Origin: a virus
Reading direction: 5' to 3' (one strand)
IMG/VR virus record: IMGVR_UViG_3300020445_000072
Location: 1 to 24,223 of that record
DNA: 24,223 bases
Shown here: positions 5,139 to 19,841 of the stretch, in pieces
Position numbering within the stretch: the first letter of the stretch is position 1
Layout: each line of letters begins with the position of its first letter
The notes under the pieces: model-generated
The model's input: the letters and a program-made list of their open reading frames with translations, nothing else
Told to the model about the DNA's origin: nothing
Databases searched by the model: none
Translations under genes and position numbers: made by a program

Positions 5139-5290
5139 ATTCTTTTTAATTGTCTTACATCAGTAACACCAAACTGTGCCTTACATACATTCTCTGCATC
5201 TTCTCTAAGATTAGATACAGACAGAAATTCCACCTTCTGCAACCTATTGGAAGGTAATAGAATATATGCTTCCCATTTAATAGGTTTCAT
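5129..5290 (-). CDS. Small conserved-looking phage protein, 53 residues
   Basis: An ATG at 5290 opens 53 codons to a TAA at 5129-5131. The start overlaps the pcyA stop as ATGA and the end overlaps the NifU-like start by 10 nt, so it fits tightly into the operon; this packing is the main evidence that it is real. The protein has an N-terminal strand-like Trp-Glu-Ala-Tyr-Ile-Leu-Leu segment, then a helix, Cys-Lys-Ala-Gln-Phe-Gly-Val, and a basic end. No membrane segment or known motif is visible. Function unknown. Confidence 0.65.
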   Translation of the reverse strand: MKPIKWEAYILLPSNRLQKVEFLSVSNLREDAENVCKAQFGVTDVRQLKRIWN

Positions 5291-5952
5291 GGAGTACAGA
5301 ATAGTATATTATTAATATAACCGTCTGCCCATTCCTTATCAAACCACTTAGAAAGAACTGCTAATGTCTTAGGATTCTTTCTCTGTTGTATAGAGTATCT
5401 AATTTGGTCTGCCTTACGTTGTTCTGTTGTTAATGGTGATCCTTTTTCAGCACTCTTAACAGCATCACAGTATATAATAAGGTATTCCATTAATACATCA
5501 AGGAATTTTCTTTGTTCTTCTACATCCCTTATACGTTGAAATTTCATATAAGGTGAGAATATATCACCCCATTCTGGTAAAGGACGAGGTTCTTTAAAAT
5601 TGAATACACTACAGATAGGTTCTATCTTCTCATAAATGTATTCTGATCCCGTAATAGGTGATACATCAACTATCGCAGCAGTAACTACTGTTGGAGTAGC
5701 AATGATATCACATCCAAAAATAGGAAGGTTATAACGAGGATCTGGAAAATACACGCAATGTAATACATCCAAATTTCCTGCCTTAGCAACCTCCAAATGG
5801 ATCTTACGAAGCCCTGTACATTCATGCATCTCATTAGAGATACTAAGATTCTCCCTATGTAACTCAGGGTATTCATTATATAACCATTTTATATTAGGTA
5901 AGTCACCCCAAGAGGTACGAATTACCTTTGCCAAATCATCAACGATAGTCAC
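5287..5952 (-). CDS. pcyA: Phycocyanobilin:ferredoxin oxidoreductase (ferredoxin-dependent bilin reductase)
   Basis: This 221-residue protein covers the whole ferredoxin-dependent bilin reductase fold. It resembles cyanobacterial PcyA in the segment Arg-Lys-x-His-Leu-Glu, Leu-His-Cys-Val, Phe-Pro-Asp-Pro, Leu-Pro-Ile-Phe-Gly-Cys-Asp-Ile and Trp-Gly-x-Ile-Phe-Ser. From memory of Synechocystis PcyA, its catalytic Glu76, His88 and Asp105 correspond here to E54, H65 and D82. Having all three favours PcyA, which reduces biliverdin by four electrons to phycocyanobilin, over the phage enzymes PebS or PcyX. The start is a GTG that shares one base with the TAG of the gene before it. The reaction needs reduced ferredoxin, and petF lies upstream in the same cluster; no heme oxygenase is in the window. 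It is somewhat shorter than host PcyA, mainly at the N-terminus. The exact product needs assay. Confidence 0.85.
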   Translation of the reverse strand: MTIVDDLAKVIRTSWGDLPNIKWLYNEYPELHRENLSISNEMHECTGLRKIHLEVAKAGNLDVLHCVYFPDPRYNLPIFGCDIIATPTVVTAAIVDVSPITGSEYIYEKIEPICSVFNFKEPRPLPEWGDIFSPYMKFQRIRDVEEQRKFLDVLMEYLIIYCDAVKSAEKGSPLTTEQRKADQIRYSIQQRKNPKTLAVLSKWFDKEWADGYINNILFCTP

Positions 5953-6107
5953 TATAGTAAAATTGCTCCGATAACGAATCCTTTAGCAAATGCAAGACAA
6001 AGCATTTGATAGTCTGTGAGTGAAAATTTATCTTGAATTTTTTTTGCGACTTTTTTGTCCCAGTCTTTGATTTTGGTAAGTGCTGCCCCTAACTTAATAT
6101 TCCACAT
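5952..6107 (-). CDS. Small protein with C-terminal hydrophobic helix, 51 residues
   Basis: An ATG at 6107 opens 51 codons to a TAG that shares one base with the pcyA GTG. It has the best ribosome-binding site in the cluster, AAGGAGG 8 nt upstream. The N-terminal half is lysine-rich and amphipathic; the last 18 residues are a hydrophobic stretch that could be one membrane-associated helix. The lysine codons hold a 20-bp sequence that recurs exactly at 23921-23940. Function unknown. Confidence 0.7.
   Translation of the reverse strand: MWNIKLGAALTKIKDWDKKVAKKIQDKFSLTDYQMLCLAFAKGFVIGAILL
6038..6057. repeat. Copy 1 of an exact 20-bp direct repeat
   Basis: The plus strand reads TTTTTTTTGCGACTTTTTTG, identical over 20 bases to 23921-23940. 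Here it lies within the coding sequence of the 51-residue protein, encoding a Lys-Lys-Val-Ala-Lys-Lys stretch. It is low in complexity, but the central GCGAC makes the identity notable. Confidence 0.7.
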
Positions 6108-6110
6108 TGG

Positions 6111-6287
6111 TTAATCCTCCTTTTGTTTGATATCATACTCAATTATGATCTTATTAGATGATCTACCAACGCTATTAAGCGTACTGGTTCTCTCACAGGT
6201 TCCACCAAGACATGCTGCTATTTGCAGTACCTCGGATATCAATTCACCCTGATTCATATGGATGAATTTATCTTCCTCAACTGTCAC
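6111..6287 (-). CDS. Small hypothetical protein, 58 residues (GTG start)
   Basis: The frame is open from a GTG at 6302 to a TAA at 6111. I prefer the GTG at 6287 because GAGG lies 9 nt upstream and the start overlaps the stop of the preceding 45-residue gene; the longer form would have 63 residues. The sequence has an acidic N-terminus, a helix with Glu-Leu-Ile-Ser-Glu-Val-Leu-Gln-Ile-Ala-Ala, a Cys-x4-Cys (Gly-Gly-Thr between), and a C-terminal strand. The two cysteines are too few for a clear metal site. Function unknown; it sits in the early small-gene cluster. Confidence 0.6.
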   Translation of the reverse strand: MTVEEDKFIHMNQGELISEVLQIAACLGGTCERTSTLNSVGRSSNKIIIEYDIKQKED

Positions 6288-6414
6288 TGCCTTTCGCCTC
6301 ACGCATATTTCGATGTAACCTATCTAGTGCTTCTTTAACTTCTGGTGTCTCTTCCCATTCCCAAGTTTCTTCACGTCCCTTCTTGTCGATCTTCTTGAAT
6401 TGTTTCTTCGTCAT
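6277..6414 (-). CDS. Small charged protein, 45 residues
   Basis: An ATG at 6414 opens 45 codons to a TGA at 6277-6279. It overlaps the 56-residue gene at its 5' end and the next gene at its 3' end. The protein is highly charged: a lysine-rich start, then Trp-Glu-Trp-Glu-Glu, then a basic helix. No fold is recognised. Support comes from its fit in a tight chain of overlapping genes and from the lack of any other good frame here. Confidence 0.5.
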   Translation of the reverse strand: MTKKQFKKIDKKGREETWEWEETPEVKEALDRLHRNMREAKGSDS

Positions 6415-6541
6415 GGAGTTTCTTCTCACGCTTGATACGTTTCTTTACCATCTTAGCATAATTTATCTCTTCTGTCGAGTACCATTTCGGATGTTTCTTT
6501 GCTCTCTTAATAATTTTCTTTGCTGCCTTAAGATCCTTCAT
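6371..6541 (-). CDS. Small basic protein, 56 residues
   Basis: An ATG at 6541 opens 56 codons to a TGA at 6371-6373; the start overlaps the end of the 78-residue gene by 14 nt. Residues 1-42 are strongly basic (Lys-Lys-Ile-Ile-Lys-Arg-Ala-Lys-Lys type) with one aromatic Trp-Tyr pair, and the C-terminal 14 residues are acidic. It could be a nucleic-acid-binding or host-interaction peptide, but nothing identifies its role. It continues the chain of overlapping early genes. Confidence 0.55.
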   Translation of the reverse strand: MKDLKAAKKIIKRAKKHPKWYSTEEINYAKMVKKRIKREKKLHDEETIQEDRQEGT

Positions 6542-6764
6542 TCAAATTCATTACCTTTTCTTTACCTCTGAAGTAGGTATTTATAACATCAACCTGATCT
6601 TGATACTTAGCAATCATGTTCAATTCTTCCTCTATTGCCTCTAAAACATTAGAATGTTCTCCAATGCCAGCAGGATTAGTGAGATAGATCTCAACATTTG
6701 CCTTATGCTTTGCTATGTCACCTTTTGCATGTGCTAATAGTGCATTAATAATTTTATCTCTCAT
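6528..6764 (-). CDS. Conserved cyanophage hypothetical protein, 78 residues
   Basis: This is an almost wholly alpha-helical, soluble protein of 78 residues: a helix to about 25 with Ala-His-Ala-Lys-Gly-Asp-Ile, a loop containing Asn-Pro-Ala-Gly-Ile-Gly-Glu-His, then a long helix 38-70. Its ATG shares one base with the ferredoxin stop (TAATG), so the two genes are translationally coupled. I recall proteins of this pattern as widespread in cyanomyovirus genomes, without known function. It has no cysteines and no membrane segment, so it is not an obvious electron-transfer partner despite its position after petF. Confidence 0.75.
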   Translation of the reverse strand: MRDKIINALLAHAKGDIAKHKANVEIYLTNPAGIGEHSNVLEAIEEELNMIAKYQDQVDVINTYFRGKEKVMNLNEGS

Positions 6765-7057
6765 TAGTATAAATTCTCCTCTTGTTCACTTAGTAATGTT
6801 ACTGTATCTGAAGTAGGTAATGCTACACATGTTAGTACATACCCTTCTTCTATTTGATCGTCATCCAAGAAAGATTGCTCTTCTTGATCTACTGTCCCTT
6901 CTACAATTTTCATAGCACATGATGAACATGCACCTGCTCTACATGATGAGGGATGATCCAAACCTGCTTCTTCTAATGCTTCTAATATAAAACTATCAGA
7001 TTCACATTCAAATGTTTCAGTTGATCCATCAGGAGATTGAACAGTAATAGTTGCCAT
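6764..7057 (-). CDS. petF: Plant-type [2Fe-2S] ferredoxin
   Basis: The 97 residues show the plant/cyanobacterial ferredoxin signature: cluster ligands C39, C44 and C47 in Cys-Arg-Ala-Gly-Ala-Cys-Ser-Ser-Cys, and C77 in Leu-Thr-Cys-Val-Ala. The N-terminal beta strands and acidic surface ([11 protein letters not shown]) are also typical. Length equals host PetF (about 97-99), so it is complete. It would take electrons from photosystem I and pass them to ferredoxin-dependent enzymes; PcyA, encoded further down the same leftward cluster, is an obvious recipient. It is followed by the 78-residue gene with a one-base overlap. A 75-nt AT-rich gap with possible -10 elements lies upstream. Confidence 0.95.
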
Positions 7058-8039: not shown

Positions 8040-10619
8040 CTAATTCAAGAAGATAGTTGCAGCAAGGAGTTTGATGGTAGCAGTAGCAGTCATGGTAATA
8101 GCAGCACCAGATGCTATTGTTGTTGCTGCTCCTGAAGTCATAATGATAGCACCAGCAGCATTAGCATTAAATGCTCCACCCAAGACTGTATTACTATATC
8201 CAGTAGCACCACATGTAATAACCATTGGTCCAGTAGGATTAGCAAGAACCCATCTTGGAATAGCATCAGTTGCAGATCCTCCTGGCATCATAACAGTTTC
8301 AATAGATCCCTTACAAATTGTCCTAATACCAGCAAGTGCTGATGGACCTATTGAAGGAACATTAATTATATTATAGAGACTGGTTGTAAACAATTCAATA
8401 GAGTTATCACCAGCAATCAATATTTCTCCACCAGCATATTTCTGTACTGTTGATGAACATTCCATTGAACTACCAGTAATCTTAGTAGATTGTGAACCAA
8501 TATCAAGTTCTGCTCCTTGGAACGTTATCTTAGCACCTGCGGAAGCAATATCTACATCAGAACCAAAGTTGATTGTATGCTTCTGAATCTTCTCTCTTAC
8601 ACTCTCACCCCTCTTATTAACAAGTTTAGGTGAACCTTGAGCATTCATAAAGAATCCACCACCAACTGTTAGATGACAATCACCAGTAACATCTAAGAAA
8701 TAATCACCGTGAATAGTTTCTACCTTATCATTCTCAATGTCTATACAATCATCACCTTTAACATCTTGTGTACGATTACCTGCCCAAGTAATATGGTCAG
8801 CAACTAAATTACCTCTATCACCTTTATTTTCTACAGTAGGGGAATTAGTTGTTGTATTATATGCTTTAACTGTCTTAGCAATGAGTGCTTTTCTATCAGC
8901 ATCACTCATCTTCTCACCACTCTTCTCTTCTTCTTCTCTTATTTGCTTTTCTGCTGCTGCTATCGCTCTTCTTTGAGTATTACTATTAATAGAGAAGTGT
9001 AGAGTACCACTAGCATTTCTCTTTTGCTCAATTTGACCACCTGGATTACCTATGTGCAATTCATAAGAACCATCCAAGAAAGTTTTTGCAGCAGTTAGAT
9101 AAGGATCTGCCTGTTTAATTAGGTTATCAAATAGACTACCACTTTCCTTAGCTTTACCACCATCACACGACTGCCTACCACCACCTCTTATATTCTCAAT
9201 TGCCTTTAATTCTTCTGGTGTACAATGTGTTACACCTAATAATGGATACCAACCAACAGTATCTTGACCTCCATCTGGTTCTCTACCACAATCACTTGCA
9301 AGGAATCCAATAATCATTGAAATGATTCCTGTTATGCTTGCTTTACCATTCTTAATAAGGTCAAATCCATCAGCAAAAATCTTAGTACCTTTTTTCCAAG
9401 TGTCAATGATATCTTTTGCCTTACCTACAGCATCAACGATAGTCGTAACTTTACTAACAACGCTAATAACGCTATCGATCATACTCTGAACATTACAAAC
9501 AATACCATCAATAGTCTTTTGAACACTCTGCAGAACAAATGCTGCTTTATCAATTAAACCTTCAAGTAAACTATCTAACTTATCAGTAATGAAACTCATA
9601 GGATCTGAGATGAATTTCATGATATTACTATCAAGGTTGCATAATGCAGAAAGAATTAATTTTACTGCTGACTGAATGATCCCAAATATCACCATAGGTG
9701 CACCAGTCTTCGACCCAAGAATACTAACCAGTTTTAATTCATCAGCAAGGTTAGCTAATGCTTGACGCATTGCAGATACAACTTGTGCAAATACTGCTCC
9801 CAAGAAATTTTGTATCTTAACGGTAAGTTCTTTTGCTTTTACTAATTTACCACTAACAACATCAAGAAAATCACCATCTTCTGCTTTAATTAATGTACTA
9901 GCACTATCAGCAAGATCCTCTACCAAATATTGCAACTGATATTCTAATGTTTTCCAAGGACCACCTACACCATTAGCAGCAGGTCTTGGTTTATCTCCTA
10001 TTTTTGGTGCTAATTTACCAACACCCTTATTAGTTAAGTTATTAGGACTTTGAGGTCCATTAGGTTCTTCACCGTCACCATCTGTGTCATCAGATGGTAT
10101 ATTTACACTGGTATTTGAATCCTTACTATATCCTTCTTCCTCAGTAGTTGCATTTGATGAATTTGGAAATAATGGGTGTGTAGCAGCAGGATTAGGTGCA
10201 ATTCCTGGTTCCATATCCTGACCAGTAAATGCAAATTTCTTCGTCTTCTTTGTCTTATCTGATTTTTGAACTCTTAGTACACCAATAACAATAGGCATTT
10301 GGGCATTATCACCATCCATGAAAAATCCCATGACAATAGCACCTGGTTGTAATTGACCAGATGATTCGCCTTGCTTATCATTACCTGATTGTGCAGTAGT
10401 TTGTAATACTGTAGCCCAAGGAAGAAATTTAGTAGGAAGGTCTGATGTAGTACCACCTTGTACATTAGTATAGTAACCAAGTACACGGCATCTAACCCTA
10501 CCTAACTTCATAGGATCTTCATGATCTTCTACTTCACCAACCCACCAGTAAAATCCATCTTTACCAACAAAATTTACGGTTGCTTCAGAAACAATACCAT
10601 CAATGGTGTCAATTGCCAT
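8040..10619 (-). CDS. 5: Baseplate hub/needle protein gp5, lacking the lysozyme domain
   Basis: The 859 residues show three parts. Residues about 20-118 form the gp5 N-terminal OB fold (Tyr-Trp-Trp-Val-Gly-Glu-Val-Glu-Asp-His-Glu-Asp-Pro, then Leu-Gly-Arg-Val-Arg-Cys-Arg and Gly-Phe-Phe-Met-Asp-Gly-Asp). Residues about 220-480 are a long helical, hydrophobic-amphipathic region. Residues about 620-859 are beta-helix repeats (Asp-Tyr-Phe-Leu-Asp-Val-Thr-Gly-Asp type), like the T4 gp5 needle. T4 gp5 has 575 residues with a lysozyme domain between OB fold and needle; I see no such domain here. It forms the membrane-piercing tip below gp27. A late box overlapping the cpeT stop drives it. Confidence 0.85.
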   Translation of the reverse strand: MAIDTIDGIVSEATVNFVGKDGFYWWVGEVEDHEDPMKLGRVRCRVLGYYTNVQGGTTSDLPTKFLPWATVLQTTAQSGNDKQGESSGQLQPGAIVMGFFMDGDNAQMPIVIGVLRVQKSDKTKKTKKFAFTGQDMEPGIAPNPAATHPLFPNSSNATTEEEGYSKDSNTSVNIPSDDTDGDGEEPNGPQSPNNLTNKGVGKLAPKIGDKPRPAANGVGGPWKTLEYQLQYLVEDLADSASTLIKAEDGDFLDVVSGKLVKAKELTVKIQNFLGAVFAQVVSAMRQALANLADELKLVSILGSKTGAPMVIFGIIQSAVKLILSALCNLDSNIMKFISDPMSFITDKLDSLLEGLIDKAAFVLQSVQKTIDGIVCNVQSMIDSVISVVSKVTTIVDAVGKAKDIIDTWKKGTKIFADGFDLIKNGKASITGIISMIIGFLASDCGREPDGGQDTVGWYPLLGVTHCTPEELKAIENIRGGGRQSCDGGKAKESGSLFDNLIKQADPYLTAAKTFLDGSYELHIGNPGGQIEQKRNASGTLHFSINSNTQRRAIAAAEKQIREEEEKSGEKMSDADRKALIAKTVKAYNTTTNSPTVENKGDRGNLVADHITWAGNRTQDVKGDDCIDIENDKVETIHGDYFLDVTGDCHLTVGGGFFMNAQGSPKLVNKRGESVREKIQKHTINFGSDVDIASAGAKITFQGAELDIGSQSTKITGSSMECSSTVQKYAGGEILIAGDNSIELFTTSLYNIINVPSIGPSALAGIRTICKGSIETVMMPGGSATDAIPRWVLANPTGPMVITCGATGYSNTVLGGAFNANAAGAIIMTSGAATTIASGAAITMTATATIKLLAATIFLN

Positions 10620-10641: not shown

Positions 10642-10648
10642 TATTTAT
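10642..10648 (-). promoter_or_regulatory. T4-type late promoter box ATAAATA for gp5
   Basis: The minus strand reads CATAAATA here; the box starts 29 nt upstream of the gp5 ATG at 10619 and overlaps the TAA stop of cpeT. Confidence 0.7.
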
Positions 10649-11115
10649 GAGACACGGACAAACTTATAAGTTCCATCATCACCCCAAAGGACATTACCCT
10701 CAGAATCTACGGACTTATCCTTAGTGAATAGTTTATTACCATAGAGATTCAACTCAGCATATACACTGGTATCCTCTCCATCCTGATCTATTTTACTATT
10801 AAATGATCCAGTCCACTTAGAACCATCCCATCTTAATGTCATATCACAGTTATCAAGTCTTTTCCAATTAGTATATGTGCCACCATAATGTTCAAGAACT
10901 ACTTCTGTATCAGATAATGTCACAAGTTTCTTCCGAACCTCAAGATAAGGATCGGGATCATCTCTATAGTGATATGCAGCATGATACCATCCCAAACCTC
11001 TTCCAACTTTCCTTGTCCAATGCAAGGTCACCTGTCTAAATCCAGTAGGATTAGACTGTGCTTGGGCTTTATTACTCCAAGTACCTAAAAGAAACGCTTG
11101 AAAATATTCACTCAT
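10645..11115 (-). CDS. cpeT: CpeT-like phycobiliprotein lyase (T-type)
   Basis: The 156 residues match the CpeT/CpcT family, beta-barrel chaperone-lyases that bind a bilin and attach it to a phycobiliprotein cysteine. Visible family features are an N-terminal Gly-Thr-Trp-Ser-Asn-Lys-Ala-Gln-Ala, a strand with Arg-Gln-Val-Thr-Leu-His-Trp, Gly-Trp-Tyr-His-Ala-Ala-Tyr-His-Tyr, and later Asp-Asn-Cys-Asp-Met and Trp-Thr-Gly-Ser-Phe strands. Host CpeT has about 200 residues; phage versions are shorter, so this looks complete. Its ATG overlaps the oxygenase stop as ATGA. It shares a late transcription unit with cp12 and is separated from pcyA by gp5. Phage CpeT proteins bind bilins, but activity and target here are not shown. 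Confidence 0.88.
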   Translation of the reverse strand: MSEYFQAFLLGTWSNKAQAQSNPTGFRQVTLHWTRKVGRGLGWYHAAYHYRDDPDPYLEVRKKLVTLSDTEVVLEHYGGTYTNWKRLDNCDMTLRWDGSKWTGSFNSKIDQDGEDTSVYAELNLYGNKLFTKDKSVDSEGNVLWGDDGTYKFVRVS

Positions 11116-11759
11116 ACCAATTTCTGAGACCTCTCATCAAAATCATACATTATGTTTATTGACATTATATATCTGTTTTGATCAGATTGATTTATTTCTG
11201 TCTTATGCTTCATCCATCCAGGAAATAATAACACATCATTAGTTTCCACATCAACAGTATGCCATTTTAACCCAAGACTATCATAGTTACCATGCATAGG
11301 TTCTGCACACTTGTATATCTGCATTGGATTCTCTATCATTAATCCTCCACCCTTAGGTGGAACATTTAGATAGCATGATACAGCAACAATAGCTCTATTA
11401 TGCATGTGTTCTGCTGTCCATCCTCCTTTAGGATGTACATTAAGCCATGACTCTGAGATATAATTCTTTACTCTTGGTTCAAGTCTCCAAGTTTCCCATA
11501 TCTCTCCGATACGAGATGGCAACCACCCCTGTACAAAGTCCTGAAACTCTGGCCAATAATGAGGAGGTTGATATTGTGTGCCCATAAGGACAACACTAGT
11601 CTCCGCACCATCTCTCATGAGAGGTTGCGGAACATTGTACTGTGTTTTGATATTCTCTGCTATCTTAAGATTATCAATTATCTTCTGCTTATTCTTATTA
11701 AATTCAAAGTCATACTTCCCTTTAAAGAGATAGGGAGTAGGATTAACATAATCTAACAT
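11112..11759 (-). CDS. Putative 2-oxoglutarate/Fe(II)-dependent oxygenase
   Basis: The protein has 215 residues from the ATG at 11759; an in-frame TTG at 11768 would add three. The C-terminal half fits the 2OG-Fe(II) oxygenase family common in cyanophages: Trp-Leu-Asn-Val-His-Pro-Lys-Gly-Gly, then a His-x-His pair (Glu-His-Met-His-Asn-Arg), a strand Ser-Cys-Tyr-Leu-Asn-Val-Pro-Pro-Lys-Gly-Gly-Gly, a distal His in Phe-Pro-Gly-Trp-Met-Lys-His, and Arg in Gln-Asn-Arg-Tyr as 2-oxoglutarate contact. The usual acidic ligand of His-x-Asp appears replaced or displaced, so metal coordination should be checked. The substrate is unknown; protein or small-molecule hydroxylation is possible. It is coupled to cp12 upstream and cpeT downstream. 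Confidence 0.8.
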   Translation of the reverse strand: MLDYVNPTPYLFKGKYDFEFNKNKQKIIDNLKIAENIKTQYNVPQPLMRDGAETSVVLMGTQYQPPHYWPEFQDFVQGWLPSRIGEIWETWRLEPRVKNYISESWLNVHPKGGWTAEHMHNRAIVAVSCYLNVPPKGGGLMIENPMQIYKCAEPMHGNYDSLGLKWHTVDVETNDVLLFPGWMKHKTEINQSDQNRYIMSINIMYDFDERSQKLV

Positions 11760-11764
11760 AAACT

Positions 11765-11992
11765 TCAATCATCATAAACTAAACATTCTGGTTCGTCTGG
11801 ATTCTGATCACAAAATAATTCTAAGCAATTAGGATCGTGATGGTCTCCATCTACGATCTCTTGATGATGATGCTCTTCGTATTCTATAAGGTCATGCAAC
11901 TCTTCTTTAACGTGTCTACGTGCAGCAGGACTAATAGTAGGATCATCAAGGAGCTCCTTGTCGTGCTCTATATGTTGTTCGATTGTTGTCAT
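11765..11992 (-). CDS. cp12: CP12-like Calvin-cycle regulator
   Basis: The protein has 75 residues from the ATG at 11992, chosen because GGAG lies 6 nt upstream; a TTG four codons earlier lacks this. The C-terminus Leu-Phe-Cys-Asp-Gln-Asn-Pro-Asp-Glu-Pro-Glu-Cys-Leu-Val-Tyr-Asp-Asp is the diagnostic CP12 tail, with the redox pair C61 and C70. The N-terminal half is helical and acidic, ending in His-His-His-Gln. The N-terminal cysteine pair of host CP12 is absent. CP12 bridges GAPDH and phosphoribulokinase and switches off the Calvin cycle; cyanophage CP12 is thought to divert carbon and NADPH towards the pentose phosphate pathway. It is first in a late cassette and overlaps the oxygenase gene. 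Confidence 0.88.
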   Translation of the reverse strand: MTTIEQHIEHDKELLDDPTISPAARRHVKEELHDLIEYEEHHHQEIVDGDHHDPNCLELFCDQNPDEPECLVYDD

Positions 11993-12051: not shown

Positions 12052-13578
12052 TTACACCTTGGATTTAGTTTTGATAACATCATCTTGGATCTTTGCCCCA
12101 TCTGTTGTAGATAAAGTGGAGATAGCAGGTTTACCATAAAGACTATCCTTACAAAGAAGTAAAGTTGTACTGAAAGTCTCACCAGTAGATTCATGTTCAA
12201 CACCAACTATAAGATAGCGTCCACTATACTTTTTGTCAATAAAAACTTCATCCCCTCTTTGTCCACCAGGCATTTCAACATAAACTGCAGATCCTGCATA
12301 TAAATCAAGATTACCAGGAACTCCAATTGATAGTCTAATAGACTTCAATGATTCCATACGAATATATTGATATGCTTGAAGCTCTACCAACTGTTCATAA
12401 TTCTTCTGGGGATTCTTTTTGAATTTTTTATCAAATACCTGGTTTGGAAGTGCAGTATAGCGTACTCTCTTTGGATAGTCAAGTAATGCCTGAACACCAC
12501 TATCCATAAGTTTTATTGGATTCTGATCCTTAGTCTTTCCAAGATGAGACATATTCTTCCACATCTCTTGATTACTATATCTGTAAGTATCATTTGATAT
12601 GTCCTGACTTACATCAGTTCCCACTTTAGAATTACCAAGTGTAGTTGGATCAAATCCAATACTATACCCTGCCCAAGCTCCATGTCTTAATCCCATAAGA
12701 TAACTTCTTTCATTAGGGAATACTATACTATTAATATTATACGGATCAGTTTCTGGAGATCCTGTACTCTTAGGTCTATATGTGTATTTGTAAAGTTGAG
12801 GTTCTCCCTTTGTAAAATTAGTTTTAGTATCAAACTTTTGTGCATTAGCTCGATCAATCATACCATCAATTGATTTAAAATTATATCCTAATGCAGTCTC
12901 AAAGAAAGCATATCCATTTTGGAATGATGATTTACCCTTACCTTTACGAATTGTCCTCTGTCCTAACCAATAAATGAGATCAAATGGTCTCCAATTCGTT
13001 GATATGAATTGATGGTTATTAATAGATTCATTCAAATCAGTAAATACTTTCTTAGGACTACCAATATAATCCTTATTATTGAGAAGTCTTTTAACTATTG
13101 CTTCTGCTTTAGTACCAGACTCTGTTTGTTTATATGAAGTTTTCTTAGTTACGTCCTTCCTACCTCCAAACAAAACTTCACTGTGACCAAATACATTAAC
13201 AACCTCATTCTTTAAAAACTCATCTGATGCAGCATTGATTATAAAGATATCAGACAACTGATTAGTTCTAGAACGATCTACAACTTCATAGGTTCTAAAA
13301 AAATAAGTTCTATCTATATGATCAGTCTTAAGAGTAAACTTCCAGCTCTCTGATCCTGTTAAAACAGCACACATTCCCATAGCATCAGTTAAAACAAAAC
13401 TAGCTTGTATTGATGCATTAGTGATAGTCTCTGAAATACTAAAACCATTCAAAAATTCTACAAAATTCCAAGAACCATCAATTTCAACCCTCTGTCCATT
13501 ACGATAAATGGATAATTCGGCTTCAATGTCAGAAATCTGACTACCTGTTATAGATCCTTTTCTATTAACATTACTCAT
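12052..13578 (-). CDS. 27: Baseplate hub protein, gp27-like
   Basis: This 508-residue protein starts at an ATG that overlaps the stop of the 921-residue gene as ATGA. The N-terminal ~150 residues form beta-strand pairs like hub domains (Asn-Gly-Phe-Ser-Ile-Ser-Glu-Thr, Ser-Phe-Val-Leu-Thr-Asp, then Tyr-Phe-Phe-Arg-Thr-Tyr-Glu-Val). The middle (about 160-240) contains a helix and Phe-Ile-Ser-Thr-Asn-Trp-Arg-Pro-Phe-Asp, typical of the segment in gp27/VgrG-type hubs that packs against the tube. The C-terminal Tyr-Ser-Gly-Arg-Tyr-Leu-Ile-Val-Gly-Val-Glu-His-Glu is also characteristic. T4 gp27 has 391 residues, so this one is enlarged. It would trimerise on gp5 as the adaptor to the tail tube. 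Gene order (tape measure, hub, gp5) agrees. Confidence 0.75.
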   Translation of the reverse strand: MSNVNRKGSITGSQISDIEAELSIYRNGQRVEIDGSWNFVEFLNGFSISETITNASIQASFVLTDAMGMCAVLTGSESWKFTLKTDHIDRTYFFRTYEVVDRSRTNQLSDIFIINAASDEFLKNEVVNVFGHSEVLFGGRKDVTKKTSYKQTESGTKAEAIVKRLLNNKDYIGSPKKVFTDLNESINNHQFISTNWRPFDLIYWLGQRTIRKGKGKSSFQNGYAFFETALGYNFKSIDGMIDRANAQKFDTKTNFTKGEPQLYKYTYRPKSTGSPETDPYNINSIVFPNERSYLMGLRHGAWAGYSIGFDPTTLGNSKVGTDVSQDISNDTYRYSNQEMWKNMSHLGKTKDQNPIKLMDSGVQALLDYPKRVRYTALPNQVFDKKFKKNPQKNYEQLVELQAYQYIRMESLKSIRLSIGVPGNLDLYAGSAVYVEMPGGQRGDEVFIDKKYSGRYLIVGVEHESTGETFSTTLLLCKDSLYGKPAISTLSTTDGAKIQDDVIKTKSKV

Positions 13579-16340
13579 CCGAAGATACCTCTCAAAGGAT
13601 TATTAAATGAATTCAATGCTTGAACAGCAGTTCCGAGGAATCCACCGAAGCGACTTCCACCGCCTCCGCCTCCTCCACCGCCGCCTCTACCACCACCAGC
13701 ATTGATCACTTTTGGTGTATTAGCAGAAGATAACACCTGTTGTGCCATAGAATTAGCTTGTGCAACCCAAGCACGACTACTATTATTTGATTTTTCAACT
13801 GCTGCCAATGCTTGTTGTACAATCTGAAGTGTTTTGGCATTCATCTCACGTCTAGCTCTATTCCTATCTTCAGTCTGCTTCTTAATTGCCTGAGTATCTT
13901 GAGTTCTTCCAATAGTAGGTCTTGGTGCTCTCCGTCCTGATGATACATTAGCAACTTTATTTGCTCCACTACCACCCCATAAACTTGTTTCTTCTTGACC
14001 ACCTCTCTTTCCTCTTAACCCACCTTCTTGATAAGGTACACCTGGTCCATCACCTGCATATTTATCATTAGCCTTCTGTGCTAATAAATCCTTAGCTCCA
14101 GTATTACCAGCAGTATTAAAGATATGATTACCATACTTAACCTTATTAACATTCTGAGATGGATCCTCAAATGCACTCTTAGTTCTAAATCCAGTAGCAG
14201 CAATTAAATTGTCAGCAACTGATTTATCATAACCTTGTGCCATAATTTTATCCCTTAAAGCACGAGAATTCTGTGCCAACCTTATTGCTATAGCAGCACG
14301 TTTATATTCCTCCTCAGAGAAGTTACCATCTATAGATCCATCACGTACTGGTTGGAATTGTCCTTCACCCATAATAACATCAGTAATACTCTCACCCTTA
14401 GAATTAAACATACCTGGATTACCAGTCTGTCTAATCAATGCCTGTCTTTGTAATACTGCTCTTGCTACCAGAGACATACCAGTTGTACCTTCACCTCTTG
14501 CCTCAGCAAGAATTAATCTCTGAAGTAAATTAAACTCAGTCTTATCCATCTGCTTCCGTTCGGTCTTCCTCTTTCCTGGTAACTGCATGAAAGATTTCAT
14601 CATTGAACGTAATCTATCACCACCAGATCCATCAGGATCATTCTTTCTTAACTTCCATAATCCCCAACGTTCACCAGTACCACCCCAATCTACTGGACCA
14701 TAATTCTCATGAGCTCCACCACCATCTCTATTAGATGCTGCTTCAGCTTGAGTCATAACATTTTTTCTTGTCACATCACCTGGTTTCATTCCCCATGACA
14801 TACCAATTCTTGCTGCCTCTTTCATCATATTAATCAACTGTGGTGATGTAGGAGGATATTCATCCCATCCTCTACCTCCCATTGCAGCAATAGCAAGACC
14901 TACAGCATTTTTATTACGTTTAAAAGTATGAGAAAGTGTTGCATCATAATCAGAATTCTGAGTTTTTTTACCAGCACCACTGAATATTGAATGATATCTA
15001 CCTGTTGCTGTCTGATTATACGCACTACCAGTCCAATGTAGATACATTTTCTTATCTACCATGCCACCTATAGCTCTTGTTATTCCACTAACATCATAAC
15101 CCATCCTTGTAGCTTCAGCAAGGCGATTCTTAGTAAGATTAGGATTAGATCTTGTAGCCTTAGTATCAAATGGAATAATATATGATGAACCGTCAGACTT
15201 ACCTCCTGCTACATACTCAGTTCCATGTCCAATAAAGTTTGGACCCATACCATCAACACTAACAGGATAACCAGACTGAGGTCCTTGTATCCATCCACCT
15301 TTTGCCATCTCCTTGGCAGGTAATTCTATACCTATTCTATCTATTGTTCCAGCTTCAAATAAAGCTCGTTGGATATTAGGATTTGGTGCTTTACTAGCTT
15401 TAGACCATCCTCCATTAGAGGAATCAAATTTTTGTTTTACCCATATCTGTCCCTTCGAGTCAACAAACCAATCACCAGGCTGAGCACCATCTGGAGCACC
15501 TGGCACTAAATCGCCAACAAAGTTCTTTTCACCAGTAGGATCATCCTCATAATAGTCTATTATCTTGTCGGTTACTATTTCACCTACTTTACCACTGACA
15601 GCAATTGCAGCAGCACCAAGGAACATCCATCCCAATGGTCCGAGTGTCAATGCACTTAATTTCACATACGCAGCTTTTATTGCTGTACCAAATAAAGTAA
15701 CGACCATCCTAAGTTCTTTAACAGTCGTTAAAATGTTTAAAGGATTCAACCATCTAAATGCTAAAGCTAGCGTACCAAATCCTACTAAAAATTGACCAAA
15801 TCCTACTAATCGATCCCACCAACTACTTTCATCCGCAAGCATATTATAGAGACCATTAAACATGTTATTGGTCCCAAATTTAGCGATAGAAGCAAGAATC
15901 TTGAGCATCTTGCCCATGACTTCTACGCCCTTCAGTATCTTTTCTTTATTATCAGGATTTGCAATCCACTTCATTATAGGCAGGATAACAAATAACTTTA
16001 ATAATCCTGCAAGCATATTAAGAAGACTTTCTATGAAACCAGGAATTTTACCTTTCTTTAATTTCCCAAGCCATGCAAACATACCCTGCTTTTTCTTAGG
16101 AGTAGTAAAATTAGGTTTAAATTTTACTCTATTCTTTTTCTCTTGCTCTAACCTATTAAGATTAATCTTTTTAATATCAACTACAACTGCACCAATAGAA
16201 TTAACCGTCCTACCAAGATTATTAACTGCCGCAACATTAGAGACCATAGCCCTAACCATAGGATTGGCTCTGCCTCTAGCGTTAGTCTCGGCACTAACCA
16301 TCTTATAGGGATCTATTTTGGAAGACTTACTTACAGTCAT
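13575..16340 (-). CDS. Tape-measure/hub-type protein with amidase-like and SleB-like cell-wall hydrolase domains
   Basis: The 921 residues divide as follows. Residues 1-250 are a helical, hydrophobic region paralogous to the N-terminus of the next gene upstream. Residues about 250-430 are a linker with beta segments. Residues about 430-570 resemble N-acetylmuramoyl-L-alanine amidase type 2: Leu-His-Trp-Thr (H435), Arg-Tyr-His-Ser-Ile (H450), Asn-Ala-Val-Gly-Leu-Ala-Ile, and H544. Residues about 600-745 resemble SleB-type hydrolase: Leu-Ala-Glu-Ala-Arg-Gly-Glu (E613 likely catalytic), Gly-Gln-Phe-Gln-Pro-Val-Arg-Asp-Gly (659-668) and Tyr-Gly-Asn-His-Ile-Phe (H739). A coiled coil follows at about 815-870, then a run of ten glycines (886-895) and a hydrophobic tail. 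It probably opens the host peptidoglycan during DNA injection. A late box lies 30 nt upstream of the ATG. Domain calls come from motif reading and are firmer for SleB than for the amidase. Confidence 0.75.
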   Translation of the reverse strand: MTVSKSSKIDPYKMVSAETNARGRANPMVRAMVSNVAAVNNLGRTVNSIGAVVVDIKKINLNRLEQEKKNRVKFKPNFTTPKKKQGMFAWLGKLKKGKIPGFIESLLNMLAGLLKLFVILPIMKWIANPDNKEKILKGVEVMGKMLKILASIAKFGTNNMFNGLYNMLADESSWWDRLVGFGQFLVGFGTLALAFRWLNPLNILTTVKELRMVVTLFGTAIKAAYVKLSALTLGPLGWMFLGAAAIAVSGKVGEIVTDKIIDYYEDDPTGEKNFVGDLVPGAPDGAQPGDWFVDSKGQIWVKQKFDSSNGGWSKASKAPNPNIQRALFEAGTIDRIGIELPAKEMAKGGWIQGPQSGYPVSVDGMGPNFIGHGTEYVAGGKSDGSSYIIPFDTKATRSNPNLTKNRLAEATRMGYDVSGITRAIGGMVDKKMYLHWTGSAYNQTATGRYHSIFSGAGKKTQNSDYDATLSHTFKRNKNAVGLAIAAMGGRGWDEYPPTSPQLINMMKEAARIGMSWGMKPGDVTRKNVMTQAEAASNRDGGGAHENYGPVDWGGTGERWGLWKLRKNDPDGSGGDRLRSMMKSFMQLPGKRKTERKQMDKTEFNLLQRLILAEARGEGTTGMSLVARAVLQRQALIRQTGNPGMFNSKGESITDVIMGEGQFQPVRDGSIDGNFSEEEYKRAAIAIRLAQNSRALRDKIMAQGYDKSVADNLIAATGFRTKSAFEDPSQNVNKVKYGNHIFNTAGNTGAKDLLAQKANDKYAGDGPGVPYQEGGLRGKRGGQEETSLWGGSGANKVANVSSGRRAPRPTIGRTQDTQAIKKQTEDRNRARREMNAKTLQIVQQALAAVEKSNNSSRAWVAQANSMAQQVLSSANTPKVINAGGGRGGGGGGGGGGSRFGGFLGTAVQALNSFNNPLRGIFG

Positions 16341-16363: not shown

Positions 16364-16374
16364 TATTTATTTAC
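16364..16374 (-). promoter_or_regulatory. Late promoter boxes GTAAATA/ATAAATA (overlapping)
   Basis: The minus strand reads GTAAATAAATA, two overlapping late-type boxes. ATAAATA starts 30 nt upstream of the ATG at 16340, and the TAA stop of the upstream gene lies within the element. Confidence 0.65.
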
Positions 16375-18944
16375 ATCCTACCAGCTAGACTATTATAAGC
16401 ATTACGCACAATAACTGCTTTCTCTTTAATTTGTGGTGAGATGACTACCTGATCCTGTATTATTGGCATTACTATAGGAAGAAGTTCTACTGGATCTTTT
16501 TGTAAAGCAACTGTCTTGGCACGATCATATAGACTCTTACCCTTTTCAACTGCTCCAAGTGCCTCAGGACTAACTCCTATCTCACCAGCAATCTCCTTGA
16601 GTCCAGTGTACATATCACCACCACCAAGTAATCCCATAGCAGACTTATAAAGTCCACCCATACCATTCTTCTCTGCTAATCCACCAATTGCTTGCATAGG
16701 AGAGAACCCACCAGCAAAAATATCCTGAATACCAGGAAGTTGTGAAAATCCAGGAATACTATTAGCTAATCCCGCAAGTCCAGGGAACATGTTACCAATA
16801 CCAGCAAGGTTATGTTCTTGTAACCAATTACCCATATTAGCCATCCTTCCACCTTCACCAAAGAACCCACCTTCTCCAAACAATCCACCAGGTTTATTCA
16901 ACCCTAATATATTACTACCAGCACTCAGGGCATTGCCCCAACCTCCACCAGTTGCACCTTGATAAACACCCTTAGCTAGTTGTCCTACATTAGACCCCAT
17001 GAAATTACTAACTCCAGCAGTTAATCCTGCCCAAGCATTAGCACCAGAGTTATACATACCAGCAAGTCCTTGACCAAACTTACTCATACGTAAGTTCATC
17101 ATCCAATTTGGTGTGTTAACCATAGACTTGGCAGTACTACCAATAGCAGCAAAGTTGCCTAAAGCACCAACACCGCCCATGACGGCACCCATGATATCTC
17201 CCTGCCTTAAGGAATTAAACGCATTAATACCTGCAACAATAGGTCCAACACCTGGAACAAATGATAGAGCAGTAGATACTATAGGATTACTAACTACCTT
17301 ACCGACAGTATTAACAACACCACTTACTACACTACCAACACCCTTAACTACACTACCTACTGCCTTACTAATACCTTTAAATATCTTACCGAAGAAGAAT
17401 TCTGGTAATTTACCTCCATCACCTTTCCAAAATTCCCACCATTTCTTACTAGATGTAACCTCTTTTTTAGCTGTTTTTTGAACAGGTGCTACAACATCAT
17501 CCTTCTTCTTTTTACCCCATCCACTAAAAAGATTACCAAAGAAATTAGTTTTCTTTTTATTTGAATCGGATTTTTTTACTTCAATAGTTTTCTTAGGAGT
17601 AGTATCCCTATTGTTAATATAATCAATCTTCTGAGAAAGTACATCAATCTTTGTCTCATTAGGACCAACAAGAACATTGGGATATCCTAAGAGAGCCATA
17701 TTTGCCCACTTATTCCAAGGTGTCTTTGCTTGTTCAGCAGCTAGATCCGACTTTAACTTATTAAGTACTTTTGCTTCACCATGCTGGGCTATTGCTTCAT
17801 CTATCTTCTGATTACCCATCTCAGTGGCTTTTTTATTGATAGGTTCAAAGATGAATTTATCAGCAGCCCAATTAATACCCCAATCAGCAAGAATACCTAC
17901 ACCAAGATTCGTAGCACCCTTTGCTCCACTCTTTAAAATATTTCCAGAAGTTACAAGAGGTTTTGCTTTAAAATTCTTAACACCTTTCTTACCCCAATTT
18001 TTTATCCCTGACCAAGTTTTCTGCCAGAAATTCCCTTTCTTCATTATATTTGAAGCACCCTGAATACTAGGTGCTCTAAATTTAGTAGACCTTAATTTAC
18101 CAGTGTTAGTAAACGATGTCTTACCCTTTACACCTTTACTTGAAGCGTTACTCTTTGTTCTTTGATTTAACTTACTATTTTTAGTTTTATTAGTATCTCC
18201 CTTTGGTGGCTTTGGAGGTTTTCTGTTGAATACATTGCAAAAGTTACCAATCCAGGTAACTATCATTGCTAGACTACCTATAGGATTAGTCAGCATTGAT
18301 ATAACAGCTATACCTTGAGTTAAATCCCAGAGGCCACTAAACCTCTCCATCAAGGTACTTTCTTTACCAACTAATTTTTGCCAACCTGATATTAACTTAT
18401 CATTAACCAACCATTGACCAAACTCTTTTAACTTTGTAAATATTACATTTGATTTATAAAAAAATTCTTCTATTTTATGCTCATTATCTGGATCAGCAAA
18501 CCATTCCAACATCTCCTTAACTACTGCGATCTTCAAGATCTCAGTAAATAGCATAAACAATGGTTCCATCATCTTTGCCCACATGGGCAACATACTCATC
18601 AAACCCTTACCTATTTTAGACTTACCAAAGAAACCTTTTATTTTACCCTTAGAAGGTTTCCCCTTATCAGTCTTACCTAATTTTGCCCTCTCCTGATCTT
18701 CCTCTGCATCAGAATCCCTATCTCTTTGTGCTTGCCGACGCTCCATCTTCTCTCTAAGAGCATCATTCTTTATACGAGCTATCTCAATCGATTCAATATC
18801 TTTAACTACACTACCAACACCATTAAGTGTCTTACCAAAACGATTAAAGGATAAAACTAATTTTCTGCCCACAAGCGATCCTTCGCTGGCATTATCTGCT
18901 GCCATGCCAGGATTAATAAACTTGTATGCTTCAATTTTAGCCAT
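16371..18944 (-). CDS. Putative tail tape-measure protein (gp29 position)
   Basis: This 857-residue protein is large, helical and low in cysteine, and follows the tail-assembly chaperone as tape-measure genes do. Residues 30-70 form a coiled-coil-like helix (Phe-Gly-Lys-Thr-Leu-Asn-Gly-Val-Gly-Ser-Val-Val), then come a charged linker to 110, hydrophobic helices at 115-150 and 200-235, a very basic Lys/Thr/Ser-rich stretch 240-330, another amphipathic region, and from about 515 Gly/Val/Ala-rich hydrophobic segments with Gly-Gly-Leu and Gly-Asn-Met repeats. T4 gp29 has 590 residues; similarity cannot be judged by eye. The ATG overlaps the end of the -1 frame chaperone extension. Its first ~240 residues are paralogous to the 921-residue protein. 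It presumably sits in the tube lumen and sets tail length. Confidence 0.65.
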   Translation of the reverse strand: MAKIEAYKFINPGMAADNASEGSLVGRKLVLSFNRFGKTLNGVGSVVKDIESIEIARIKNDALREKMERRQAQRDRDSDAEEDQERAKLGKTDKGKPSKGKIKGFFGKSKIGKGLMSMLPMWAKMMEPLFMLFTEILKIAVVKEMLEWFADPDNEHKIEEFFYKSNVIFTKLKEFGQWLVNDKLISGWQKLVGKESTLMERFSGLWDLTQGIAVISMLTNPIGSLAMIVTWIGNFCNVFNRKPPKPPKGDTNKTKNSKLNQRTKSNASSKGVKGKTSFTNTGKLRSTKFRAPSIQGASNIMKKGNFWQKTWSGIKNWGKKGVKNFKAKPLVTSGNILKSGAKGATNLGVGILADWGINWAADKFIFEPINKKATEMGNQKIDEAIAQHGEAKVLNKLKSDLAAEQAKTPWNKWANMALLGYPNVLVGPNETKIDVLSQKIDYINNRDTTPKKTIEVKKSDSNKKKTNFFGNLFSGWGKKKKDDVVAPVQKTAKKEVTSSKKWWEFWKGDGGKLPEFFFGKIFKGISKAVGSVVKGVGSVVSGVVNTVGKVVSNPIVSTALSFVPGVGPIVAGINAFNSLRQGDIMGAVMGGVGALGNFAAIGSTAKSMVNTPNWMMNLRMSKFGQGLAGMYNSGANAWAGLTAGVSNFMGSNVGQLAKGVYQGATGGGWGNALSAGSNILGLNKPGGLFGEGGFFGEGGRMANMGNWLQEHNLAGIGNMFPGLAGLANSIPGFSQLPGIQDIFAGGFSPMQAIGGLAEKNGMGGLYKSAMGLLGGGDMYTGLKEIAGEIGVSPEALGAVEKGKSLYDRAKTVALQKDPVELLPIVMPIIQDQVVISPQIKEKAVIVRNAYNSLAGRM

Positions 18945-19131
18945 TAGCTGCTTGTTGCTCTTTTGCTCTTCGCTCTTCCTCTTTGAGGAATGACATTAGT
19001 AAATTAACATAAATTTCCTTCTCAAAGGGCATCAAATTATCAACATACTCTATATTCCACTTGTGATGATGCATTAATGCGAAGTTACCTTCATAATAAG
19101 CTTTCAATGTATTATGAAGTAGAGCTATGCG
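18937..19131 (-). CDS. -1 frame extension of the gp26-like chaperone (GT-type), made by frameshift
   Basis: In the -1 frame relative to the gp26-like gene, 64 sense codons run from the slip site to a TAA at 18937-18939 that lies over the tape-measure ATG. This frame has a TGA 13 nt upstream of the slippery heptamer and no ATG until 45 codons before the end, so an independent start would lose conserved-looking sequence. The peptide is helical and charged: Leu-Leu-His-Asn-Thr-Leu-Lys-Ala-Tyr-Tyr-Glu-Gly-Asn-Phe-Ala-Leu-Met-His-His-His, then Pro-Phe-Glu-Lys-Glu-Ile-Tyr and Glu-Glu-Glu-Arg-Arg, a pattern typical of T domains of tail assembly chaperones. A frameshifted product would have 301 residues. 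Alternatives are a TTG start or a separate short gene; T4 has a separate gene 51 in this operon position. Confidence 0.75.
   Translation of the reverse strand, partial: RIALLHNTLKAYYEGNFALMHHHKWNIEYVDNLMPFEKEIYVNLLMSFLKEEERRAKEQQAANG
19089..19119 (-). promoter_or_regulatory. Perfect 10-bp stem-loop downstream of the slippery site
   Basis: On the minus strand, CTTCATAATA (19119-19110) pairs exactly with TATTATGAAG (19098-19089) across an 11-nt loop. The stem begins 11 nt after the slippery heptamer, slightly farther than the usual 5-9 nt, and is AT-rich. It could stimulate -1 frameshifting. Confidence 0.6.
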
Positions 19132-19841
19132 AAAAAACTCGCAAGACCCTCAAGTACAACATCACTTTCAACCTTTGTTTTAGGATTAGTTACCTTCAAA
19201 GTATGAGATAACTTAGGCATAGTTTCAAAAAATTCTTGAACCTTAAGAAACTGCTTACTGCTTAACTGCTCAAAGAACTCTACAATTTCAGTTCTTGGCA
19301 TATCAGTACAATCGTATACCTGTTCAGTATCAGTAATTGATTCAACACAATCAGCTGCCATGTCAAAAACTTGATCGGGACCGAAATCCTCTTCGTCACC
19401 TATGAAATTCATTGAAACAAAAGTTTCCATACTAGGATACTTCATCTTCATAACGATTTCATCAGATAATTTAATCTCTGATTTGTGTTTTTTATCTTTT
19501 TTAATCTTAATATCACTCAAAGGAATTGTTACAGGAACTTGAGTTTCACCATCATCAGGACATGTTACAGAGAGTTCAACACTCTCACCAACAGATTTTG
19601 TACGAATCTGAAGGAATAAAAATTCAATATCAAAAGTTGCTAAAACATCTATTTTTTCTATATCAGTACATGCTGTAATGATAGTCTTAATAGCATCAAT
19701 AAGATCTGCCTGTTCACCAGTTTCAGTCGCTAAAAGAAGCAACTTCTCTTCTTTAACAAGAAAAGGTCTATAATTTACAGTCCTACCATCAGACGGTAGT
19801 TTCATTTTGTACTTAGGTACATTTAATTTAGGTAATGCCAT
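19125..19841 (-). CDS. 26: Baseplate hub / tail assembly chaperone, gp26-like
   Basis: This 238-residue protein begins Ala-Leu-Pro-Lys-Leu-Asn-Val-Pro-Lys-Tyr-Lys-Met-Lys-Leu-Pro-Ser and continues Tyr-Arg-Pro-Phe-Leu-Val-Lys-Glu-Glu-Lys, which I recognise from the T4-like gp26 baseplate family. The N-terminal helix region (30-80) ends in Phe-Asp-Ile-Glu-Phe-Leu-Phe-Leu-Gln-Ile-Arg, followed by a beta part with a Cys-Pro-Asp-Asp-Gly motif and an acidic helical C-terminus. T4 gp26 has 208 residues. It lies directly upstream of the tape-measure gene and carries a -1 slippery site at its third and second last codons, as G-type tail assembly chaperones do. The ATG follows a CTAAATA late box by 28 nt. 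Calling it a chaperone is inferred from position and frameshift; hub membership is family knowledge. Confidence 0.8.
   Translation of the reverse strand: MALPKLNVPKYKMKLPSDGRTVNYRPFLVKEEKLLLLATETGEQADLIDAIKTIITACTDIEKIDVLATFDIEFLFLQIRTKSVGESVELSVTCPDDGETQVPVTIPLSDIKIKKDKKHKSEIKLSDEIVMKMKYPSMETFVSMNFIGDEEDFGPDQVFDMAADCVESITDTEQVYDCTDMPRTEIVEFFEQLSSKQFLKVQEFFETMPKLSHTLKVTNPKTKVESDVVLEGLASFFA
19131..19137 (-). promoter_or_regulatory. Slippery heptamer T TTT TTC for -1 frameshift
   Basis: In the frame of the gp26-like gene the codons read AGT TTT TTC GCA TAG, so T TTT TTC fits X XXY YYZ exactly. It is the only such site in the short window between the last -1 frame stop (TGA) and the zero-frame TAG, two codons later. 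Confidence 0.75.

Follow-up and report, generated by a model that had tools for sequence, protein, structure and literature searches.

The DNA analysed here is a 24,223-base virus record of IMG/VR; this whole stretch is what we call the window. Its gene content is that of the hub region of a T4-like cyanophage, and the core gene order of this region is repeated in about 20 Kyanoviridae isolates. The genes of interest are the following:

19125–19841, minus strand: gp26 baseplate hub/chaperone (PF12322, E 1.7e-75).
18937–19107, minus strand: likely gp51 (hub assembly catalyst), 56 aa with a TTG start, with the position and size of gp51 in S-SM1, S-RIM50 and others.
16371–18944, minus strand: protein A, 857 aa, the paralogous neighbour of B (phrog_790).
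13575–16340, minus strand: protein B, a 921-aa tail/hub-operon protein with a wall-hydrolase cassette (ORF; phrog_2588 and phrog_1200, 'endolysin').
12052–13578, minus strand: hub-operon tail protein in the gp27 position (phrog_350, E 6e-128).
8040–10619, minus strand: gp5 spike with an OB fold, a gp5-type trimer region and a helical insert, without a detectable lysozyme domain (Pfam, phrog, comparisons).

A profile comparison of the phrog_350 gene downstream of B with T4 gp27 was not significant, so gp27 homology has been dropped for this gene. Among the hub genes, in 5287–7057 and 10645–11768, are also found a ferredoxin-dependent bilin reductase (PF05996; PcyA-type), a ferredoxin-like ORF, CpeT and a 2OG-Fe(II) oxygenase; P-SSM7 likewise has them among its hub genes.

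Protein B is exactly the 921-residue frame described in an earlier note on this DNA, and the residues named there (H435, H450, H544, E613 and H739) lie at those positions. It matches phrog_2588 and phrog_1200 from end to end (E 4e-219 and 2e-135); this full-length homology and the operon gp26-gp51-A-B-phrog_350 place it in the cyanomyovirus tail 'endolysin' family (phrog_1200/2588). Its relatives occur in 295 phage records, cyanophages nearly throughout. With the window protein as single query IMG/VR gave no matches; an alignment query gave 389 relatives. The whole protein compared by sequence with the PDB has low-complexity matches only. The dual-domain protein itself is not new: the databases already hold this 'endolysin' family. 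Its parts are:

15570–16340, minus strand: N-terminus, residues 1–257, hydrophobic, all-helical and common to protein A (model, phrogs).
15081–15305, minus strand: scaffold motif GGWI.GPQSGYPVS..FIGHGTEYVA..IPFDT, residues 346–420 (alignment).
14586–15068, minus strand: amidase_2 fold with a degraded zinc site (pseudo-amidase), residues 425–585 (model, residue states, dN/dS).
15036–15038, minus strand: H435, first zinc ligand, retained in the window (H in 26/26 non-redundant intact domains).
14748–14750, minus strand: Q531 (CAA), in place of the second zinc His (H in 26/26 intact domains).
14661–14663, minus strand: G560 (GGA), in place of the third zinc ligand, Asp (D in 26/26 intact domains; G in the window and in contig L028).
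14091–14543, minus strand: SleB-like (Hydrolase_2) domain, residues 600–750, catalytic site intact (sub-threshold Pfam match, fold, conservation).
14502–14504, minus strand: E613, predicted catalytic Glu of the SleB domain, aligned to the Glu of YGESRGE in Bacillus anthracis SleB (4fet).
13578–13943, minus strand: C-terminus, residues 800–921, coiled-coil-like and Gly-rich, ending in LNSFNNPLRGIFG (translation; conserved alignment end).

The hydrophobic helical N-terminus and the Gly-rich C-terminus of the earlier description are both present, as judged from hydropathy (peaks near residues 105 and 230), a helical model and the translation. The model of residues 1–422 has a mean pLDDT of 63.8, a low to modest confidence; residues 27–257 are all-alpha, at modest confidence. 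A fold search with it gave no more than weak resemblance to helical and membrane proteins. A and B share matches to phrog_790 and phrog_1200 at their N-termini, and A was recovered as a paralogue of B with E 4.9e-6; a Pfam search of protein A of the window gave no match and found no hydrolase domain. Residues 346–420 have the highest conservation across all cassette types.

Could B, together with A, be the tail tape measure? This is a serious possibility, although we lean slightly against it. B lies in the operon between gp51 and the gene in the gp27 position, and its N-terminus is hydrophobic and helical. Mass spectrometry of S-CREM2 virions detected the positional orthologues of A and B with 73 and 71 unique peptides; the authors named them endolysins, possibly head-packed (PMC10665884). 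Presence in the virion fits a tape measure, and by analogy we infer that protein B of the window is also in the virion. A and B have 1565 and 1456 aa in S-CREM2, with a 418-nm tail, versus 933 and 722 in S-N03 (138 nm) and 936 and 735 in S-H34 (129 nm), a comparison of three phages only. However, spread over the 632 residues by which A is longer, or the 734 of B, the extra tail of about 280 nm corresponds to 4.4 or 3.8 Å per residue, too high for a helix, so that neither A nor B alone fits. S-CREM2 also has an alternative candidate, ORF124 (2668 aa; table in PMC10665884). The N-terminus of B has no significant profile match to T4 gp29 (hhalign against the single T4 sequence, probability 0.5%). 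The S-CREM2 locus of A and B is L124:5484–14555; their length is possibly tied to tail length.

The cassette which follows the scaffold was studied with an AlphaFold2 model of residues 418–765, built with 23 IMG/VR relatives (mean pLDDT 72.9; the loop 545–558 has low confidence). It matches amidase_2 structures: 8c4d (Z 12.8), 4ols (Z 11.8), AmiE 3lat (11.1), T7 lysozyme 1lba (Z 10.4) and the PGRPs (Z about 9). It also matches SleB 4fet with Z 13.0 and 2.7 Å rmsd over 120 residues. On account of these structure matches of the model both folds are real, beyond chance. Structure prediction has thus borne out the two domains proposed in the earlier note; the catalytic residues which the note gave to the amidase are contradicted by the states of intact relatives, as will be described below.

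In Pfam the SleB-like domain is sub-threshold: Hydrolase_2 covers residues 616–741 with E 2.4e-4 and 22.1 bits against a cut-off of 27, so its membership rests on fold and motif. Relatives of B reach 28–34 bits. The segment LAEARGE of B has the catalytic Glu motif (G/A)E(A/S)RGE and aligns with YGESRGE of SleB. E613 and H739, which the earlier note had singled out, are retained in every SleB-type relative long enough to reach them. This conservation suggests that the domain is probably still a working enzyme. In one relative (L027:7046–9829) LAEARGEG is replaced by LAEAANQG, in which the catalytic Glu is still present; the SleB domain of this relative is possibly also changing.

The amidase domain is different. 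Pfam Amidase_2 gives no match on protein B of the window; its intact relatives are at or just under the cut-off. As a reference we used 51 intact amidase cassettes, 26 of them non-redundant (<95% identity), whose second domain is SleB, glucosaminidase or other. Positions 435, 531 and 560 are His, His and Asp in all of them (51/51, or 26/26 non-redundant). Amidase_2 has His, His and Asp/Cys as zinc ligands; in AmiE they are H60, H165 and D179 (PMC2837410). Protein B has H435, Q531 and G560. The earlier note had proposed H435, H450 and H544 as the site of an amidase-2-like domain: the fold and the first ligand stand, the other two do not, since some intact relatives have Asn or Gln for H450 and several have Thr or Asn for H544.

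The second zinc His is also absent in 10 related contigs, with Gly, Ala or Glu in its place, and some of them have lost other ligands. Position 531 reads Q/G/A/G/G/E/G across the lineage of the window. The states at 435/531/560 are H/Q/G in the window; among its closest IMG/VR relatives they are H/G/D in L025–L026, H/A/D in L027, H/G/G in L028, N/G/D in L029, G/E/D in L030–L033 and H/G in L043. A sequencing error behind Q531 and G560 is unlikely: the related contigs come from other samples and carry losses of their own, and the recurrence of identical substitutions in different samples (L025/L026; L030–L033) argues against it. Given H531→Q, D560→G and the loss of the second His throughout the lineage, only a SleB-like (glycosidic) activity is expected. 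A search of the other contigs from the degraded lineage for a replacement amidase or T4-type lysozyme found none, which means little: the contigs are fragmentary, and some amidases known by other evidence (e.g. G007/L113) escaped the Amidase_2 profile as well.

The amidase domain still evolves under constraint. Its dN/dS (Nei-Gojobori, rough at these distances) is 0.39–0.65 in 20 degraded pairs versus a median of 0.22 and a maximum of 0.43 in 362 intact pairs. With phylogenetically disjoint pairs the difference between degraded and intact has p 0.009, the truly independent degraded pairs being two. A separate computation for L029/L030 gave 0.64 (dN 0.155, dS 0.244). In the SleB domain the degraded and intact groups overlap. 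These rough values point to an amidase constraint which is relaxed yet still purifying, not gone.

The history of the loss is not simple. Trees without contig L105 unite the degraded set in one clade, whichever of the three parts of the protein is used. L105, which came from a second scan, is a member of this lineage whose H/H/D site is intact. In the amidase-domain tree the degraded set stays together (92/93), with L105 as its sister; in the scaffold tree L105 is nested among the degraded proteins and a one-clade model is rejected (p 2.5e-5). A single clean loss of the amidase site, which held on the first trees, was thus broken on the scaffold once L105 was added. Because of this nesting either one amidase decay with scaffold recombination, or repeated loss of the second His, is needed.

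It might be thought that the amidase fold is a functionless remnant, decaying and in the course of being lost from the cassette. The raised dN/dS would agree with it, and so would L029–L033, which besides the first His have also lost H471 and the 537–546 loop. We find it unlikely: dN/dS is well below 1, and W436, Q501, E508, E533, P549, G573 and R578, which look structural, are fixed in the degraded amidases, as is Y449 except for one Phe. Moreover, deletion of the domain has not been found in any member of the lineage so far.

Protein B should also be placed in the context of other cyanomyoviruses. The earlier note suggested a survey of whether the loss of the gp5 lysozyme goes together with these domains. 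The gp5 of the window, as had been claimed, has no detectable lysozyme domain, and none was detected in a set of 12 gp5 proteins, which resemble T4 gp5 in their OB and trimer parts; no hydrolase domain is found in gp5 across 17 complete genomes. In the same 17 genomes all matches to Amidase_2, Phage_lysozyme, M15_3 and Hydrolase_2 are in A or B, save one S-SM1 ORF. The proposal that the wall-degrading domains are in a protein of the tail-hub operon and not in gp5 holds, then, as a family-wide trait of cyanomyoviruses. In gp5 of the window (8040–10619) a helical insert occupies the place of the T4 lysozyme, and C327, C444, C466, C485 and C625 (window numbering) are nearly invariant.

The N-terminal 420 residues of B are constant while the cassette varies. 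B has Phage_lysozyme and M15 in S-SM1 and P-RSM4, amidase and glucosaminidase in S-RIM50, glucosaminidase and M15 in P-SSM7. Protein A has Phage_lysozyme in S-H25 and an M15 peptidase in S-RIM50; in S-CREM2 there is a GH19 chitinase domain in A and lysozyme in B. A more distant phage (L113:7387–12497) has an intact amidase in A and SleB in B, the pair being split over two adjoining genes. In S-RIM2 R1_1999 (L014:6491–11525) A and B are each annotated as two ORFs and, taken in one frame, run through stops: these are frameshifts, real or due to sequencing.

In PHROGs and in several records B is named 'endolysin', and it may be asked whether it is the late lysis enzyme rather than an enzyme of entry; the two roles are compatible. 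Something must lyse the host, so the lack of a separate Amidase_2 or Phage_lysozyme gene in the 17 complete genomes counts for it. Against it, B belongs to the gp26-gp51-hub operon, its hydrolase part is joined to a conserved scaffold of 420 residues, and the S-CREM2 orthologues are found in virions; we consider a lysis role in place of entry improbable. The exception in S-SM1 is a free small ORF (NC_015282.1:162750–162959; 133 aa frame) with Hydrolase_2 above the cut-off, the sole wall-hydrolase match outside A and B; it is a candidate lysis enzyme.

That both domains are active, with the amide and glycosidic specificities of the earlier note, is very improbable for the window: both folds are present, H435 and Y449 are kept and the intact relatives WH25-B, ACG-2014b and L105 plausibly act in this way, but two of the three zinc ligands are missing, the second His is absent in every degraded relative which reaches it, and mutation of a single ligand abolishes the activity of AmiE (PMC2837410).

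Our preferred reading, which we consider likely, is that protein B is a wall-cutter of the tail hub in which a pseudo-amidase probably binds the wall next to a probably working SleB enzyme. A and B are a paralogous tail/hub-operon pair of T4-like cyanophages, carrying the wall-cutting domains that T4 has in gp5. The common helical N-terminus and the conserved segment GPQSGYPVS...FIGHGTEYVA would serve as scaffold, and the cassette at residues 425 to 760, which is exchangeable, would attack the peptidoglycan, most likely during tail penetration, a timing that we infer. In the lineage of the window the cassette is an amidase fold followed by SleB. The former, its second zinc His lost and other catalytic residues lost in different members, is not expected to cleave. 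Cutting of the glycan strand would fall to the SleB-like domain, which has its catalytic Glu, while the amidase fold that persists would probably grip the peptide stem and position SleB. A binding role is plausible by analogy with AmiE, since its ligand mutants which are unable to cut (H60A and D179A, with lytic activity gone) still bind muramyl-tripeptide (PMC2837410). Non-catalytic PGRPs also have an amidase_2 fold without zinc and retain the equivalent Tyr (PMC8124813).

Two points weigh on this reading. The protein of the window still has H435 and Y449, and a metal might in principle be bound in it with the help of H471 or H544. As to the binding module, many of the same data fit a domain degrading toward removal. 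The more specific proposal, that this lineage has turned a tail amidase into a zinc-free peptidoglycan-binding partner of the adjacent SleB domain, a viral parallel to non-catalytic PGRPs within a cassette-swapping paralogous hub family, is a tentative one, to which we come close to committing ourselves but do not.

Several known systems are related to protein B. The nearest are the other members of the phrog_1200/phrog_2588 'endolysin' family (S-SM1, P-RSM4, ACG-2014b and others), with the same gene, operon place and full-length homology; in most of them the amidase is intact or the cassette is a different one (Phage_lysozyme and M15, amidase and glucosaminidase), whereas the amidase of the window is degraded. 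The tail lysozyme of T4 gp5 is also a wall-cutting domain in the hub region of a contractile tail. In cyanophages gp5 has retained its OB and trimer parts, but the domain has shifted to neighbouring proteins and has amidase and SleB folds, not that of T4 lysozyme. The hub protein gp15 of Anabaena phage A-1(L) has several hydrolase domains, two of them shown to be active on the host; it differs in its lysozyme, endoglucanase and peptidase folds, which lie within the barrel hub protein itself (PMC10966104). In mycobacteriophage TM4 the tape measure protein, in the tail interior, has a peptidoglycan hydrolase motif (PMC1796659); it is a different motif, in a siphovirus with an established tape-measure role. 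Non-catalytic PGRPs and the AmiE mutants still bind peptidoglycan with a zinc site that does not work, and keep the Tyr; they are animal receptors or engineered proteins, whereas B has a phage tail domain, putatively binding, fused to an apparently working glycosidase. The catalytic domain of Bacillus SleB (4fet, 4f55) shares fold and catalytic Glu with B, at about 22% identity, and acts in spore germination, not in a phage tail. No phage pseudoenzyme amidases were found in the open-access literature, and what is new here is most likely the variant: a virion-associated wall hydrolase with a zinc-less amidase fold beside SleB.

The case of protein B corrects an automatic inference: two folds do not imply two activities. 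The natural series from the intact L105 to the partly or fully degraded L025–L033 and the window can be used to test how a wall enzyme changes into a binding module. In T4-like cyanophages the detectable wall hydrolases are found in two paralogous, cassette-swapping tail/hub genes and not in gp5; these A and B genes are a direct target for studying how abundant cyanophages cross, and perhaps exit, the cyanobacterial wall.
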